Source of the DNA: Cystobasidium ongulense
Taxonomy: Eukaryota; Basidiomycota; Cystobasidiomycetes; Cystobasidiales; Cystobasidiaceae
Reading direction: 5' to 3'
DNA: 64,000 nt
Assembly: GCA_022835595.1 (NCBI GenBank)
Contig: BQUP01000001.1
Coordinates: 2,604,001 to 2,668,000, forward strand
A model generated the notes under the pieces. The model did no database searches and was not told where the DNA came from. It worked only from the letters and a program-made list of their open reading frames with translations. Both the position numbers and the translations under genes were made by a program. Shown here in pieces: positions 1-63,179 of the stretch; the first letter of the stretch is position 1, and every line of letters begins with the position of its first letter.

Positions 1-1604
1 AATGTGTTGTGAATTGCTCCACTAGGTGCACCCGAATTGCCGACTGTCTCAAGACGCGCTCTCTTGCTCGATTTGTCGGCATCTAGTGCAGGCATAGCAT
101 TTGCCATTCCAGCTCTTGATAACGGGGTATCAAGCACATCATCACTTTCAGTGCCATTGGTGGTAGTCGACGATAATGATCCACCGGACTCAGGTGTGAT
201 CTCGCGGTTACGCTTTGTAACAGTTCTACTAGTGTACGAAAGAGATCGCGAAAGAGGTCTTCGCATTGGGAATGGCCTCGATAATCGTCCCTGGTTGAAA
301 TTTGGCGGATGCGATGCCTGTAGTATTGCTGCAGGGGACGGTCCATTGGTACGGGCAGGGGCAGGAGCTAGGACACTGGGTACCTGAGCTGCAGGCGGAG
401 ATGATCCTGCCGTTGTAGTAGGGCTCTCGAATCTGGTCGAGCTATATCGTAGATTAGTAGGGGCGCCAGCTGCCTTTCGCGCTGCCATCGCTTCGGCTGC
501 TGTAGTGGAGGACATGGTGACTGCTCGTCGAGGACGAGTCGTAATTTCGAACTCTTCCAATTCGTCGTCCATGCCTTTGCTATTCCTACGCGACTTGTCT
601 TGGGCATTTCGCTTGACATGCTTTAGATCGCTGTCGGGCTGCCGTACGAAGGACAGTGTCAGCGTAATCGGAACGACATTCTGACAACGAAAGCGATCTT
701 ACAGTGTCGCGCATAATCTGGTCATGCTTCCAAATCGTGCAGCTACTGGCGACCGTCTTGCCGTCTGGGGCTGACTGCAATCTGCGCCAACCGTAAATGT
801 TGACTGTGGTCCAGTCATTAGCTAGATTCTCAATTCTCGGATGGCAAGGACATACGTTGTCGAGCCTAAGGATGTTAAGTACGTCAATTCCGAGTCATAT
901 AGTGACAGTCAATACGCATTGAACTTACGAAAGATGAGTAAGAGTTCTGATTGAAGAGCTCTGGAATGACTCTTTCCATCAAACCAGCTTTGTCGGGCAC
1001 GAGAAAATACTTGCCGTTCTCGCTCCACCTTGTGTGCCAAATAGTCAGCTGACAGGTATTTAGGTACAAGGCGCTGCCGTCATACCTCATATACGGGCTC
1101 TCTGGGTTCTCCCGTAGGAAAGTAGTGAGGGTGAAGAGAAAGGTTGCGGGACGGGTACCGCTGCCCTTTGAAGACGATGCCCGGTCACTAGCCTCCGACT
1201 GAATAGACAGTGCAGGCGAAGACGCTCTCGATAGCCCTGCCCCAGACCAATTTGGGCCAAGCAGACCCGACGCATCAGGGGCTGTGGAGGGTTCTGCACT
1301 TGCCTGGTCTTCGTTGTGGTTTCTCAACTTGAATGTGATAGAAGCGCGACGCAGGATCGTACTAGGGAGCAGCGACGAGGGTCCGGAGTTTTGCGTTACG
1401 TTTGTGGTAAGCGCGGGTATTTCGCCAGCTTGAGATTCCGGAAGATCATGCGTAGGCACTTCCATTACCTGCAAAATGATGAGCTCGGCCTTATGGGTAC
1501 GGCATCACGGATCTGCCTACCTTTGTAGCATTTACCTGATTGTCTTCGACTACAAAGTGGGCAACGTCCCTAGAGCAGACTGAGGTTTGGTTTGAGGTGT
1601 CCAT
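1..1604 (-). CDS. HSF-type transcription factor, 3' part off the left edge
   Basis: Probably a sequence-specific nuclear transcription factor of the heat-shock-factor fold. I place exons at 1604-1536, 1468-916, 803-703 and 638 to the edge; all junctions are GT-AG and keep frame. The short first exon starts at ATG 1604 (MDTSNQTS). After a Ser-rich leader of roughly 110 residues comes the winged helix: a FLRENPES helix, then RWSENGKYFLVPD, PELFNQNSYSSFV, an intron, LNIYGW, and a wing ending DLKHVKRNAQDKSRR, as in HSF and Skn7-like proteins. The recognition helix has weak identity (FVSSM for FVRQ) and there are about 15 extra residues between the first helix and the RW strand. The last exon is Ser/Thr/Pro-rich and still open at base 1, so any coiled coil or activation domain is not visible. 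The first intron could also use a donor 12 bases earlier. Confidence 0.75.
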
Positions 1605-56867: not shown

Positions 56868-58092
56868 TCACTTTCCCAGTAAATTAGCTGATATCTCAGC
56901 AGCTTCGTCATCCGTATCTTCCTGCAATTCATTCGATGTATTTGACGAGTCCATAGAAGCAGTTTGTTGGCTTAATTTCTCATTTTCTAGTGCTGCCTTT
57001 CGATCAGCTTGTTTCATAGCTTCCGCTTCCGCTTCTAACCTTTCCAATCTATCCACTACCCTAACTACCTCTTCAAGTAAATAGACCTTAACATAATGTC
57101 TTCCTGGTTGCCTGCATTCTGGACAATCTGGCGTAGTTGCTAGATTGTATAGTCTTAAATGCGAATCATTCCATTGTTTCAAGCAATGTCTGCACATTGT
57201 ATGACCGCATTCGAGCGTTGTCACATCGCCTGGCTTGAAGAGTTCGTAGCACAGCGAACAAGAGAGTGTAGAGCGGAGGTTCTCGAAGACATCTCGCATG
57301 CGAAGGTAGGCATCGTGAAGGTCTTTGTCCTTTTGCATGATCTCGCATCAGTAAACCTTTTATAGCCGGGTAGAACATGGCAATCAAGACTCACAGAGAC
57401 AGGCATGTAATTTCTTGCTGATTTTAGCTCCTCTACCTCCTTTTCTTTGAGGGCGAGCGCCTCGCGAAGATCTTGAATCTGAAGTCTTGCATCGACATAC
57501 TTCTCTTCTCGTCCGGACAAGCCCTGCAAGAGATGTCAGCGATAGGCCTTGCTTTGAGCCCGTATAGATAGTAAGACTTACCTTCCGACTCCTGTTCAGT
57601 TCATCATTAAGCACTTTGTTCTGGTATGCAAGACTTAGAACAGTCTATACAGCGAAGATTCCGCCACCAAGTCAATCCTGAATCAGCACACTTTCGAGCC
57701 TGGCAGATACAACAAGAGACGACGTTACTTACAGCTCTATATCTATCCCTCTCATGTTCCATTGCTTTCAGATCTCTGACGACGGCAGCATGCTGTTTTT
57801 CCTTCTGTCTGGCTTGTGCCAGTTCCTGCTTCGCCGTCTCCAAACGAGCGTAGAGAGCATCGAGCTCGGACGTTGAAATCGGTGTCGAAGCCTCTTTCGA
57901 GGACGCGGGCTCTTCATTGACTAGATCTTTACTTTGCATGCCGGTGTGCTCATATTCTATATCGCCTGCTGTTTCTGATTGCTGGGCAGCTTGCTTGAGA
58001 TTCGCCTTGGCCAGGTCATCGACATCCGGATGGTCGGCCTGAGGCTGCTGCTTTCTACCGAGACTGGACGGCTGGACGTTGTCTACTTCCAT
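56868..58092 (-). CDS. RING-finger protein with N-terminal coiled coils
   Basis: A probable E3 ubiquitin ligase of unknown target. Start ATG 58092 (MEVDNVQPSSLGRKQQPQAD). A disordered leader is followed by heptad-rich helices: ELDALYARLETAKQELAQAR, then EKYVDARLQIQDLREALALK and EKEVEELKSA. The RING is near the C-terminus: CSLCYELFKPGDVTTLECGH, TMCRHCLKQWNDSH and DCPECRQPG, with the full C-x2-C, C-x-H-x2-C-x2-C and C-x2-C zinc ligands. A further short coiled coil (VVRVVDRLERLEAEAEAMKQ) precedes an acidic tail ending ISANLLGK. Introns are near 57320-57400, 57530-57600 and 57615-57735. Coiled coils before the RING suggest dimerisation. I do not recognise a specific ortholog. Confidence 0.82.
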
Positions 58093-58832: not shown

Positions 58833-61800
58833 TCAACTGGTATATAGTGTAGCGAGGGGAGAAATGAACTGTTCGATTAACATAGAATCTTCACTTTCAT
58901 CATCGTCCGACACAGTAATAACAGCTTCGTGTAACTGTCTCATTGCGTAGGATGATGAGCGATGAGTACCAACGAAAATACCAGCAAGAGTCATACTCTG
59001 TAAGAATGGCATTTGTAGAAGCAAACCATCAGGTGTGAGTAGCTCATTCTCTTTCCATTTTTTAGGTGTTGCAGGACAAGGATCGAAAGGTGTTGTTACT
59101 GTTGGTGTTGTTGAAGAAGAAGAACCAAACGGTGATGATGCTGTAAGAACGGATTGTTCAGGATCGGCGTCGCCGACCGTGCCATGGGATTCGACTCGTG
59201 AAGTAGGCCATTCCTTTTCAGGTATGATGCAGCACTCTTTCCCCTTGAATTTGAGATTTACACTCTCAGCTTGAATAGCAGTGGATCTAGACCATAGCAC
59301 AGAGCCTTCGGAATCGCTTCTTTCCAAGCCAGTATTTTTCTGGAAAATATAGGGTGATGTGACGACATTGTCAGAAATAATGCCCGGGAGACCAGCATTC
59401 ATTGATCTTGGGGATGGCATATAGATATTGAATAGTGAGTCTACTAGATCATCATCGTCCGTATCTTGCTTTGATAGGGCTGCCTGAGTCTGGTCTGGAA
59501 CGAAAGCAGAAGTTGACGTTGGGTGGAGGTACTGCGGATCCATGCCGTTGCATGGCGTGCGGCTGCCATTCACTCCATTATTGATGGAAGTCAGACTTTC
59601 CTCATCGACCTGCCTAGAATCCGTATGACTCGGCGATGCAGATTCTATCTTTAAGGTAGGAACTGTTTGCAAATTGTTCATGTTCATGACCAATTCGGTA
59701 TTCTCCCCTAGCGAACACGCAGCTGCAATCTTCTGTTGGATGAGATCGAGCGGTACTTTCACATTGTCATGAGGAAGGATAGATCCAAATGAGACACACA
59801 TCCCTTCAGAGTGTTCCCGAGTACTGTTCATGGTATACGAAGCTTCTTCTTTCTCTGCTGCACCGTCGATTCTCATCTCGGTCTCTTCTTCTTGAGCCTG
59901 GATTTCATTTACCTTCACAGGCATCCCACGAGTGAATGCAATATTCATTCCAAGGATGGAATGTGCATGCGCAACACTAGAGAGGCAGGGCTCCGAAGCG
60001 CTAAGCCTTTCCCTTGCGGTCTTTGCGATCGATTCTTCTCTAGGTGTGCTGGGACCATTGAATGGCAATTGTCGGGCAACTGGGCGAGGAGCATCAAAGA
60101 CTGGAGAACCAGCTTTCAGAGTTGCTTTCTTCACAGCCATGACGGCATCAAGAATAGTGTCTTGTCGATGTTCTTCCTTTTGCATTGGTAAAGGTTCTGA
60201 TACGACAGAAGACAACTCGGAGCTAGTATCATCGATTGAATCTTGCCTTTTGTTTTCGATGTGAGCTCGACATCTTGGTATAATAGGCGAACGATCTGGA
60301 GGAGAAGACAGCTCAATCTCCATTTGCGTCTCATCTTCCCGATTTTTCGCTTCGGCTTCTTCCAATTTTGGGGCTTTACAGTCAAAAACTGCTTCAAGCA
60401 TCTCTTGCTTAACCTTTATTTCGAAATCCGGACTCTTGGCGCGCTTTAAAGCTCGTAACAATCTCATCGAAGTACCACAATCTTCGACGACATGAGGAAG
60501 ATATTCAACATCCCCGCCGTGTACTTCATCTTCTTCGATTATAACAGCTTTGATCTTCGAGTTAAAATGTACAAATTCGGAAACTCCACCAAATTCATCT
60601 TCGACTTCATTCTTCTTCTGTGCTGCTACTGATCGACTACCGCGAAGCGGATATCGCTTGATACTTGTACCATCGCTTTTGTCGGGAGTTACAGAAGTAG
60701 AAAATGGGGCAGTGCATCCAAAGCGGCTTTGTTTGTCATCACGAGGAGAAAGCGACATATGTTTCTTGCCAGAGTAAACGTTGCTAGCAAGTCTTGCGGA
60801 GCGTAGCGGACGAGCAGCAGAGATAGGTATGGTAGGTTTAGTAGGTACGCTCTTTCCTCTCGTCAGAACTTTCTTACAGTCTTGACGATCTTTATTTTTC
60901 TTTAAAGGAGGACTATCTAGTGACTGTGCCGCGATCTTACGTTTATAATGCCATCCACGTCTGTTTCTTGGTGGTGTTGTTGGTTGTTCTGATGGAGAGA
61001 TCGATACAAGTGTTTCTTGTTTTTTAACTCTTTTTTTTGATACTACATCCCAATCAGCTACCCATGTGCTCTTTCTCTTGTTTGAGGTTCCAGATGATGC
61101 AGTATTTGCTTCATACACCTCGGATACTTTGCAAGTCTTGGTTGCTGTTTTGACAGTCTCATCGAATTGAACGCTCTTGCTCGAAGCTGCTATGATTGCT
61201 TGCTTCTTTGGAATAGGTGAGGTTGCTTTCTTGCCTACTTGAGGAGCAACAGTGGTTTGGCTTGGCTGGAGGGCGCTTTTTTCAGCAGCAGTACCAACAG
61301 TCTGAGTCGGTGTATCTCTGCGCTAAGGTTGTGAAGACAGGAAAGCAAGAAAATTGACAAGATAGATTAACAGCAAGAAGAGAAAAAGCCATGTCAGGCA
61401 CAATACCAAATCAGAACACATCACAACATAGAGGCGCTGGAGAGGCATCACCTCAAGAAGAACTGTACTCACATGAGTTTCATGCTTACAAACGTGTAAT
61501 TTAGCTTTTTGACATGATGATAGATGAGTGGCTAAACCTAGTTTGTCGACTTCATCGGGTCTAACTTTATCAAAATGATAGTTCTGTTGAAATTTGCAAA
61601 TGGGGATGAGCATGATGAAGACGCTGTCAGTGAACGAAATACTCGTTGTATATCAGGCAGCTGAAGCCTTGAAACTTACCACAAGTTGTTTATACTGGTG
61701 CGGTAAGGTAACCAACAGCACGATGATCAGTCATGTCAATGTATACGGGAGAAGATATCTAGTGCACTGAAAGTGAACATACCAAAGCCTTGAAACTGTT

Positions 61801-63179
61801 TTGATGAGTGTATCCACAGGCGTTTAATTCGTTCCGCAAACCTTCCGTATCAAAGATGAGAATGTAATCACCACAAGTAGACCAAGCTACGCTTTTACTA
61901 TGTGGGTGTGAATTGATATAGCTGTGAGTAGCCAGAGCGGGCGCAGTGATGGAGGGAAGCAGAAGAGAATGTCAGCATCAAGGAGAACTGAGTTGGAACA
62001 TCCATCAAGTTGCATGATGTAGAAAGAGAAGGACGAATATGGGTGTGTAGGAAGATATCGATTTATTGAAACTCACTTGATCAAATGTTGATCAAATTTC
62101 TTACTACGTCTGTATTCATCCGTTACTTTTTCAGGTTTCTTGCGCTCTATACTTTCACTCTTCTGGATATTTGTTCTTAAGCTTGTTTTATCGCTGTCTT
62201 TCAGAAGCAGCTTGACGTCGCGAGCGAGTTTTTGTTTTATAGGTTTTTCAATCTCTTGTTCTGTATCAGCATCTGTGTCTAATTCATTGCAAGTAAGCGA
62301 GTTATGGATTGATTGCCTCTTGATAGGGATGAATGGTTTTGGTTCGGGCAGAGAAGAAGTAGATGAAGAAGCAATTTCGGAAGGTTCTTCAGTGGCGGCG
62401 TCTTGAGTGACGTCTGGCGGGAGGTGTGTTGTTTCGTTTGTTGAGACAGCTATAGACTCGGATGATCCCTGGCTAGACGAATCACGAGGACCAAATGGTT
62501 GACGGAGTCTTCTCTTCGGTTTCACTCGTGTTGGAGCCATGGTGGTGGGAGGTAGATCAACCGATTTCGAGGGGTTAGAAGAAGAGGAAGAAGTAGGAGC
62601 GAGTGTTCTCTGTTTCGTGTGCATCGGTGGAAAAGTTCTCTGTGCCTGATCTCTTGTCTGCTTGTCTGCCAGTGTCTGCGCTTCGGAAGTGGCGAACCGG
62701 CAGACTGGAAGAGTGTCAACCTTGACAGTGCCAGGAACGGGGAGATGTGTTTCTTCAGCGTGAAAAGCGGAGAGTGTTCTTTTATGTGATGTGCGGGATG
62801 ATATGTCTGAGAGTGTGTCTAGTGATGGCATTATCGAGGTTTGCTTGGATACGAGTGAGGGCGCTCGAGGTGCAATGCTCGTCTCTGCTAGAGGGGCGAG
62901 TGGGACTTCCGGTGAAGAGCAGTGGGTGCGTCCTTCAAGGGAAGTGTTGAGTGTGTTGATTGAGGATGAAGAGGAAGACAGAAGAGAAGGGCAGATGGAG
63001 GATGTGGAAGTGTGAAGGTTCGTGTCCTGGAAGTCGTCGTCTTCGTCCTCGCTGTCGAGTGAGGATAGGTCGGAGGAGGAGCCATCGACGATGGCATTGG
63101 AGGTGCGTCGAGAGTCATGGTGGGTATGGGTTGAAGGTGTAGTTGATGCAGTACGAGTGGATGAGTGCTGCTCCTCCAT
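58833..63179 (-). CDS. Large disordered protein with a divergent HSF-type DNA-binding domain
   Basis: Five exons (63179-62077, 61921-61783, 61694-61680, 61583-61473 and 61322-58833) join in frame to 1285 residues. The first about 365 residues are Ser/Thr/Pro-rich and disordered. A winged-helix segment follows: KKFDQHLINYINSHPHSKSV, AWSTCGDYILIFDTEGLRNE, HQNSFKALYKQLVNYHFDKV and then LSSCQKAKLHVCKHETH. The third piece aligns residue for residue with the HSF recognition helix and wing start (F-x4-[KR]-Q-L-x2-Y-x-F-x-K-V). The YKQLV part is encoded by the 15-base exon. The last exon is an 830-residue disordered region with basic nuclear signals (SNKRKSTWVADWDVVSKKRV) and acidic Ser patches, ending PLATLYTS. 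Probably a nuclear regulator. The family assignment rests on the helix alignment, not on a search. Confidence 0.75.

Follow-up and report, generated by a model that had tools for sequence, protein, structure and literature searches.

The 64-kb window studied here, a stretch of 64,000 nucleotides from Cystobasidium ongulense, contains a five-exon gene on the minus strand that encodes a long protein with an HSF-type domain in its interior. The gene, which we shall call the candidate, extends from an ATG at position 63179 to a stop codon ending at position 58833 (Table 1). Its spliced open reading frame of 3858 nt encodes 1285 amino acids with no internal stops. The four introns, of 155, 88, 96 and 150 nt, were inferred without transcripts; each has GT..AG boundaries and keeps the reading frame. 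An earlier sequence-only reading of this DNA had given end points and a protein length that fit this model exactly.

Table 1. Positions in the window of the candidate gene and of the second HSF-type domain. Secondary structure of the candidate's domain was assigned by alignment to HSFs.
Feature	Positions	Strand	Description
Exon 1	62077..63179	-	Disordered-looking N-terminal part, residues 1-367, within which helix 1 of the HSF domain begins (at ~62096); GT donor, open frame
Exon 2	61783..61921	-	HSF domain from the remainder of helix 1 through the first strands to helix 2
Exon 3	61680..61694	-	Microexon of 15 nt (YKQLV) within the recognition helix; carries the Lys and the Val that occupy the Arg71 and Asn74 positions of human HSF1; both edges coincide with intron sites of other HSF genes
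Exon 4	61473..61583	-	Recognition helix to its end (NYHFDKV), followed by the wing and by the last strand as far as KHETH
Exon 5	58833..61322	-	End of the HSF domain (RRDTP, to ~61302) and 829-residue C-terminal part
HSF-type domain of candidate, genomic span	61302..62096	-	Residues 362 to ~463, spread over five exons
HSF domain of L015, second HSF-type gene of the window	703..1171	-	PF00447 63.0 bits as spliced by eye; divergent group

A codon-usage model built from seven further long frames in the window was used to assess the coding character of the exons. The claimed frame is the best of the six in all five exons, the preference being weak in the short exons. Scores for exons 2 and 4 are just under zero, and exon 3 is too small to be counted. 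When the protein was searched against the 19.77-Mb genome, the four candidates scored contained only the gene's own exons, and a second genomic copy was therefore rejected. Downstream on the same strand lies a RING-finger frame at 56868-57347 (zf-RING_UBOX, E = 1.8e-8), and one frame matches the Aft1_OSA domain at a score under the threshold.

The presence of an HSF-type domain was established by profile searches. In the whole protein, hmmscan places PF00447 at residues 362-461 with 28.1 bits (E = 3.1e-6; cut-off 22), covering positions 1-91 of the 100 in the profile, and the domain alone scores 33.6 bits (E = 5.7e-8). No further Pfam family was found in the whole protein at E values up to 10, and the receiver domain of a Skn7-type response regulator is absent by the same search. 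A profile of ten HSF domains, seven from the C. ongulense genome and three human with the candidate excluded, matched residues 361-463 with 43.8 bits, where the best shuffled sequence reached 9.9 (1962 scored of 2000 made). With a profile of three related domains of the genome (L013, L014 and L015, see below) the candidate scored 53.7 bits, and with a canonical HSF profile 20.7 bits; these values were reached by none of the 1732 and none of the 1903 shuffles scored, respectively, from 2000 made in each case. Since no scored shuffle reached the profile scores, chance resemblance to HSF was rejected. Of 27 core positions at which canonical HSFs are hydrophobic, 21 carry a hydrophobic residue in the candidate (counting cysteine), a number attained by none of 10000 shuffles; this pattern supports a winged-helix fold indirectly.

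The domain is nevertheless far from the canonical sequences, with 13-22% identity to the seven HSF domains on the canonical side. Its best solved relatives when searched alone are weak matches, namely 1fbs (an HSF, E = 0.0039) and 5d5w (E = 0.014), with unrelated chains appearing from 0.017. The database label of 5d5w is putative transcription factor; we take it to be Chaetomium Skn7. A profile that combines the candidate's domain with those of three sister genes finds HSF structures with an E-value of 2.9e-15. The sequence-only reading had proposed a divergent HSF-type domain, and with the PF00447 score of the spliced protein over its cut-off and the shuffle controls passed, this is borne out. 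The 16-residue segment that it had aligned with the HSF pattern position for position does indeed align without gaps, with 7 of 16 residues identical by eye. In exon-by-exon PF00447 searches of the genome (ten candidates scored in each) the candidate was not among the matches listed, most likely because the domain is split over five exons. Scans of this kind can overlook genes such as this one.

The genome contains at least nine HSF-type genes, including the candidate. Seven of the others are found by PF00447: L009 (HSF1-like), L010, L011 (Skn7-like), L012, L013, L014 and L015, where the labels HSF1-like and Skn7-like are given by resemblance. The ninth, L029 (genome C8, 472459-472620), was reached through a weak match to L014 (E = 0.155); its spliced domain is HSF-like and its introns are shared. 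The sister domains were spliced by eye, with the HSF pattern as a guide; the models of L010 and L015 take AAG as an acceptor, and in the Skn7-like gene one letter at a junction is a guess.

L015 is the other HSF-type gene that had been noted in the window. It contains a 10-nt microexon within the recognition helix, the first edge of which is at the site of the 15-nt microexon of the candidate. The two genes are about 60 kb apart; for nine genes in 19.77 Mb about 0.2 such pairs are expected by chance, and a meaningful clustering was rejected as not being beyond chance. L014 (genome C8, ~549018-549370) also matches the Ets domain of Pfam with 21.3 bits (E = 3.3e-4), below the cut-off of 26.9, which hints that the winged helices of HSF and ETS proteins may be linked. 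In L012 (genome C8, ~273843-274031) a junction within helix 2 is without a clear splice donor: the intron may be unusual, the assembly wrong at this point, or the gene in decay. The joining of the first two pieces of L012 is tentative.

Each of the candidate's four introns has a counterpart, identical in alignment column and in phase, in at least one other HSF gene of the genome. Intron 1 is shared with the HSF1-like gene, L010, L013 and L029, intron 2 with L015, and introns 3 and 4 with L014 and L029. The coincidence was stable in 11 of 11 MAFFT runs, some settings being repeated. With 9 known sites among 309 the chance of four coincidences out of four is 3.4e-7, or 8.9e-7 if two more sites are allowed, figures that are optimistic because the null is uniform though introns are not uniformly placed, and because splice sites were chosen with the HSF pattern in view; they were computed before L029 was found. 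Intron 4 divides KHETH from RRDTP, with counterparts RHPRL/NRDSP in L014 and HENLLRDSP in L013, and the RRDTP sequence read across it resembles LRDSP, NRDSP and MRDT of the sister genes. A literature search gave no paper using the term basidiomycete HSF intron positions.

How is the candidate related to the other HSF genes? In a tree of the domains one split, with support 100/99, separates the candidate, L013, L014, L015 and L029 from the HSF1-like gene, L010, the Skn7-like gene, L012 and human HSF1, HSF2 and HSF4. Its bootstrap value was 96, 98, 98 and 100% on omission of L013, L029, both of these, and the candidate, respectively. Profiles from which the tested member was left out gave the same division, with five out of five divergent members preferring the divergent profile and seven out of seven canonical members the canonical one; the candidate scored 51.6 against 21.7 bits, and L015 merely 56.5 against 54.8. 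A wing ending in His-[E/P/D]-x-x-x-R-D is common to the candidate, L013, L014 and L015. The conclusion that emerges is that at least five HSF genes of this genome form a divergent group and that the candidate is one of them. Splits inside the group are weak and the branch of the candidate is the longest, at 6 to 10 changes per column, so that its place within the group is unsure and may be influenced by long-branch effects.

Human HSF1 and HSF2 are described as reading GAA by means of an invariant arginine (Arg71 and Arg63, respectively), aided by Asn74/66 and Arg117/109 (PMC8379338). At the position of Arg71 the candidate has lysine, whereas arginine is found in all ten other aligned domains and in L029. 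L013, L014, L015 and L029 thus keep this residue, and among the nine genes its loss is specific to the candidate. The position of Asn74 is occupied by valine. Asparagine is present here in seven of the ten other domains, but L010 has serine, L013 cysteine and L014 arginine, and L029, outside these ten, also has arginine; the loosening at this position is therefore not special to the candidate. Arg117 is aligned with a glutamate, in a poorly aligned tail. Further changes are Ser68 to alanine and Lys62 to histidine, while Lys80, Tyr76 and Gln72 are retained, as is most of the hydrophobic core. The turn preceding helix 3 contains one extra residue in the candidate, L013 and L014, and two in L029. 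Thus the candidate shares the divergent side of the tree with its four sisters, and each of its intron sites with at least one of them, but differs from them in having lysine in place of Arg71; it is the most divergent member of a divergent HSF group. A literature search found no paper with the phrase Arg-to-Lys change at this position.

On a simple residue scale most of the protein looks disordered, and the window of residues 361-420 is the most ordered stretch. The earlier description of a disordered protein stands to this extent, such a scale being no disorder predictor. No HR-A/B heptads were seen by a simple count of heptads, as distinct from a coiled-coil program. The best proline-free window, far toward the C terminus, has 5 of 8 a/d positions and is not above shuffles, compared with 7 of 8 in the stretch after the domain of the HSF1-like protein of the same genome. 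With neither HR-A/B by this count nor another Pfam domain, the protein is without recognized HSF oligomerization architecture, as the sequence-only reading had stated. There are four basic motifs, and 3.7% of shuffles have as many. No AT-hooks were found in the protein, and SUMO-interaction motifs, SUMO sites and SP/TP sites were rejected as functional clues, being not above shuffles.

Compared with the PF00447 family (HSF1, Skn7, Sfl1), the candidate has the same domain and shares its helix-1 intron with the HSF1-like gene of its own genome, but differs in the lysine and valine at the Arg71 and Asn74 positions, the extra residue before helix 3 and the lack of a visible HR-A/B. Mammalian HSF5 departs from the family in ways that are partly similar. 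It is described as lacking heptad repeats, as carrying an insertion between helix 2 and the recognition helix, and as binding a single-GAA motif (PMC11059408); the candidate likewise shows no heptad repeats by the simple count and is altered in the linker between these helices. Departure from the classic heat-shock element, reported for HSF5 (PMC11059408), is expected of the candidate as well. The two differ in that HSF5 retains the arginine where the candidate has lysine (PMC11059408). The divergent profile matches HSF5 (8zys) with E = 1.3e-4, far poorer than its matches to HSF1, HSF2 and HSF4. By analogy HSF5 would be the best functional precedent, and it is not a close relative by sequence.

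Basidiomycetes are known to carry several HSF genes. Eight, encoding 247-1352 residues and with 3-11 introns, are described in Ganoderma lucidum (PMC13116305), and in the 700-aa ThHSF1 of Trametes hirsuta the modelled DNA-touching residues are reported to extend from 332 to 381, with HR-A beginning at 393 (PMC12772356). These mushrooms thus resemble C. ongulense, by description only, in having several genes, rich in introns, with very long proteins and a domain away from the N terminus (PMC13116305, PMC12772356). The position of the domain in mid-protein, which had been considered an oddity, is consequently not one, as the domain of ThHSF1 is also reported to be far from the N terminus (PMC12772356). 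Cryptococcus is reported to have Hsf1, Hsf2 and Hsf3 (PMC10165103), of which Hsf3 is said to be closest to human HSF5 (PMC9477856). The earlier suggestion of a new class of HSF-fold regulator is correct in so far as a genuine, though divergent, HSF-type domain is present, but is overstated, since the candidate is the extreme member of a divergent group of at least five genes. It is a divergent variant within the known HSF family, and both its length and the place of its domain have precedents in mushrooms.

What might such a protein do? We consider it probable that the candidate is a nuclear sequence-specific DNA-binding regulator with an HSF-derived winged-helix domain, standing with at least four sisters in a divergent group, and judging from its residues it most likely no longer reads the classic heat-shock element. 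The residue changes, the longer turn and the missing HR-A/B lead us to infer a DNA-binding protein of the winged-helix type whose specificity is altered and which does not form HSF1-type trimers. The winged-helix fold would be kept, and the domain would dock in the major groove via the YKQLVNYHFDKV helix, probably without trimerization of the HSF1 type. Lysine in place of arginine, valine in place of asparagine and the turn before helix 3 longer by one residue would together move the target off nGAAn repeats. The long arms of the protein may recruit co-regulators, and the four basic motifs would be consistent with a nuclear location. The DNA-binding fragment of HSF5 is reported to be a monomer, but the full-length protein to oligomerize through a part outside the DNA-binding region (PMC11059408), so the missing HR-A/B is no proof that the candidate is monomeric.

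A serious rival, though we think it unlikely, is that the candidate has lost specific DNA binding altogether, the HSF fold persisting as a protein-protein interaction module within a large scaffold. In maize HSFs replacement of the matching arginine by alanine is reported to have abolished binding, and that arginine to be essential for binding the heat-shock element (PMC12251660). In the candidate both this residue and Asn74 are changed, probably also Arg117; the change of the arginine is unique among the nine genes, its four divergent sisters retaining it, and the branch is the longest of the HSF domains compared. On the other hand, substitution of arginine by lysine is conservative and keeps the charge, Lys80, Tyr76 and Gln72 are retained together with most of the hydrophobic core, and the reading frame is intact through five exons. 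That the protein is instead an ordinary HSF, trimerizing and binding heat-shock elements as HSF1 does, would agree with its membership of PF00447 and with the helix-1 intron held in common with the HSF1-like gene. This is improbable in view of the low score with the canonical profile, the altered base-contact residues, heptads that are not above shuffles and fewer than those of the HSF1-like protein, and the presence of separate genes that by resemblance are HSF1-like and Skn7-like.

Least probable of all is that the gene model is wrong, and that an HSF-like frame was produced by a favourable choice of exons or by chance. Introns inferred without transcripts, a microexon of just 15 nt and coding scores slightly below zero in exons 2 and 4 might suggest this. 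It is countered by four GT..AG introns that keep the frame, at sites recurring in other HSF genes, by the match of RRDTP across intron 4 to the sister sequences, and by the shuffle controls.

Returning to the reading of the candidate as a DNA-binding regulator of altered specificity, a more far-reaching form of it is possible, which we put forward tentatively. The shared introns and wing motif may define an undescribed fungal HSF subfamily, in which the candidate, with lysine in place of the guanine-reading arginine, would read a new DNA site and would have lost its connection both to the heat-shock element and to trimerization of the HSF1 type. A literature search found no such divergent group in titles or abstract openings, most subscription papers lying outside its coverage. 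In the usual view, a single invariant arginine links the HSF fold to the GAA code. If the proposal is true, the natural exchange of this arginine, alongside sister genes that keep it, would show how the GAA code can be rewritten.
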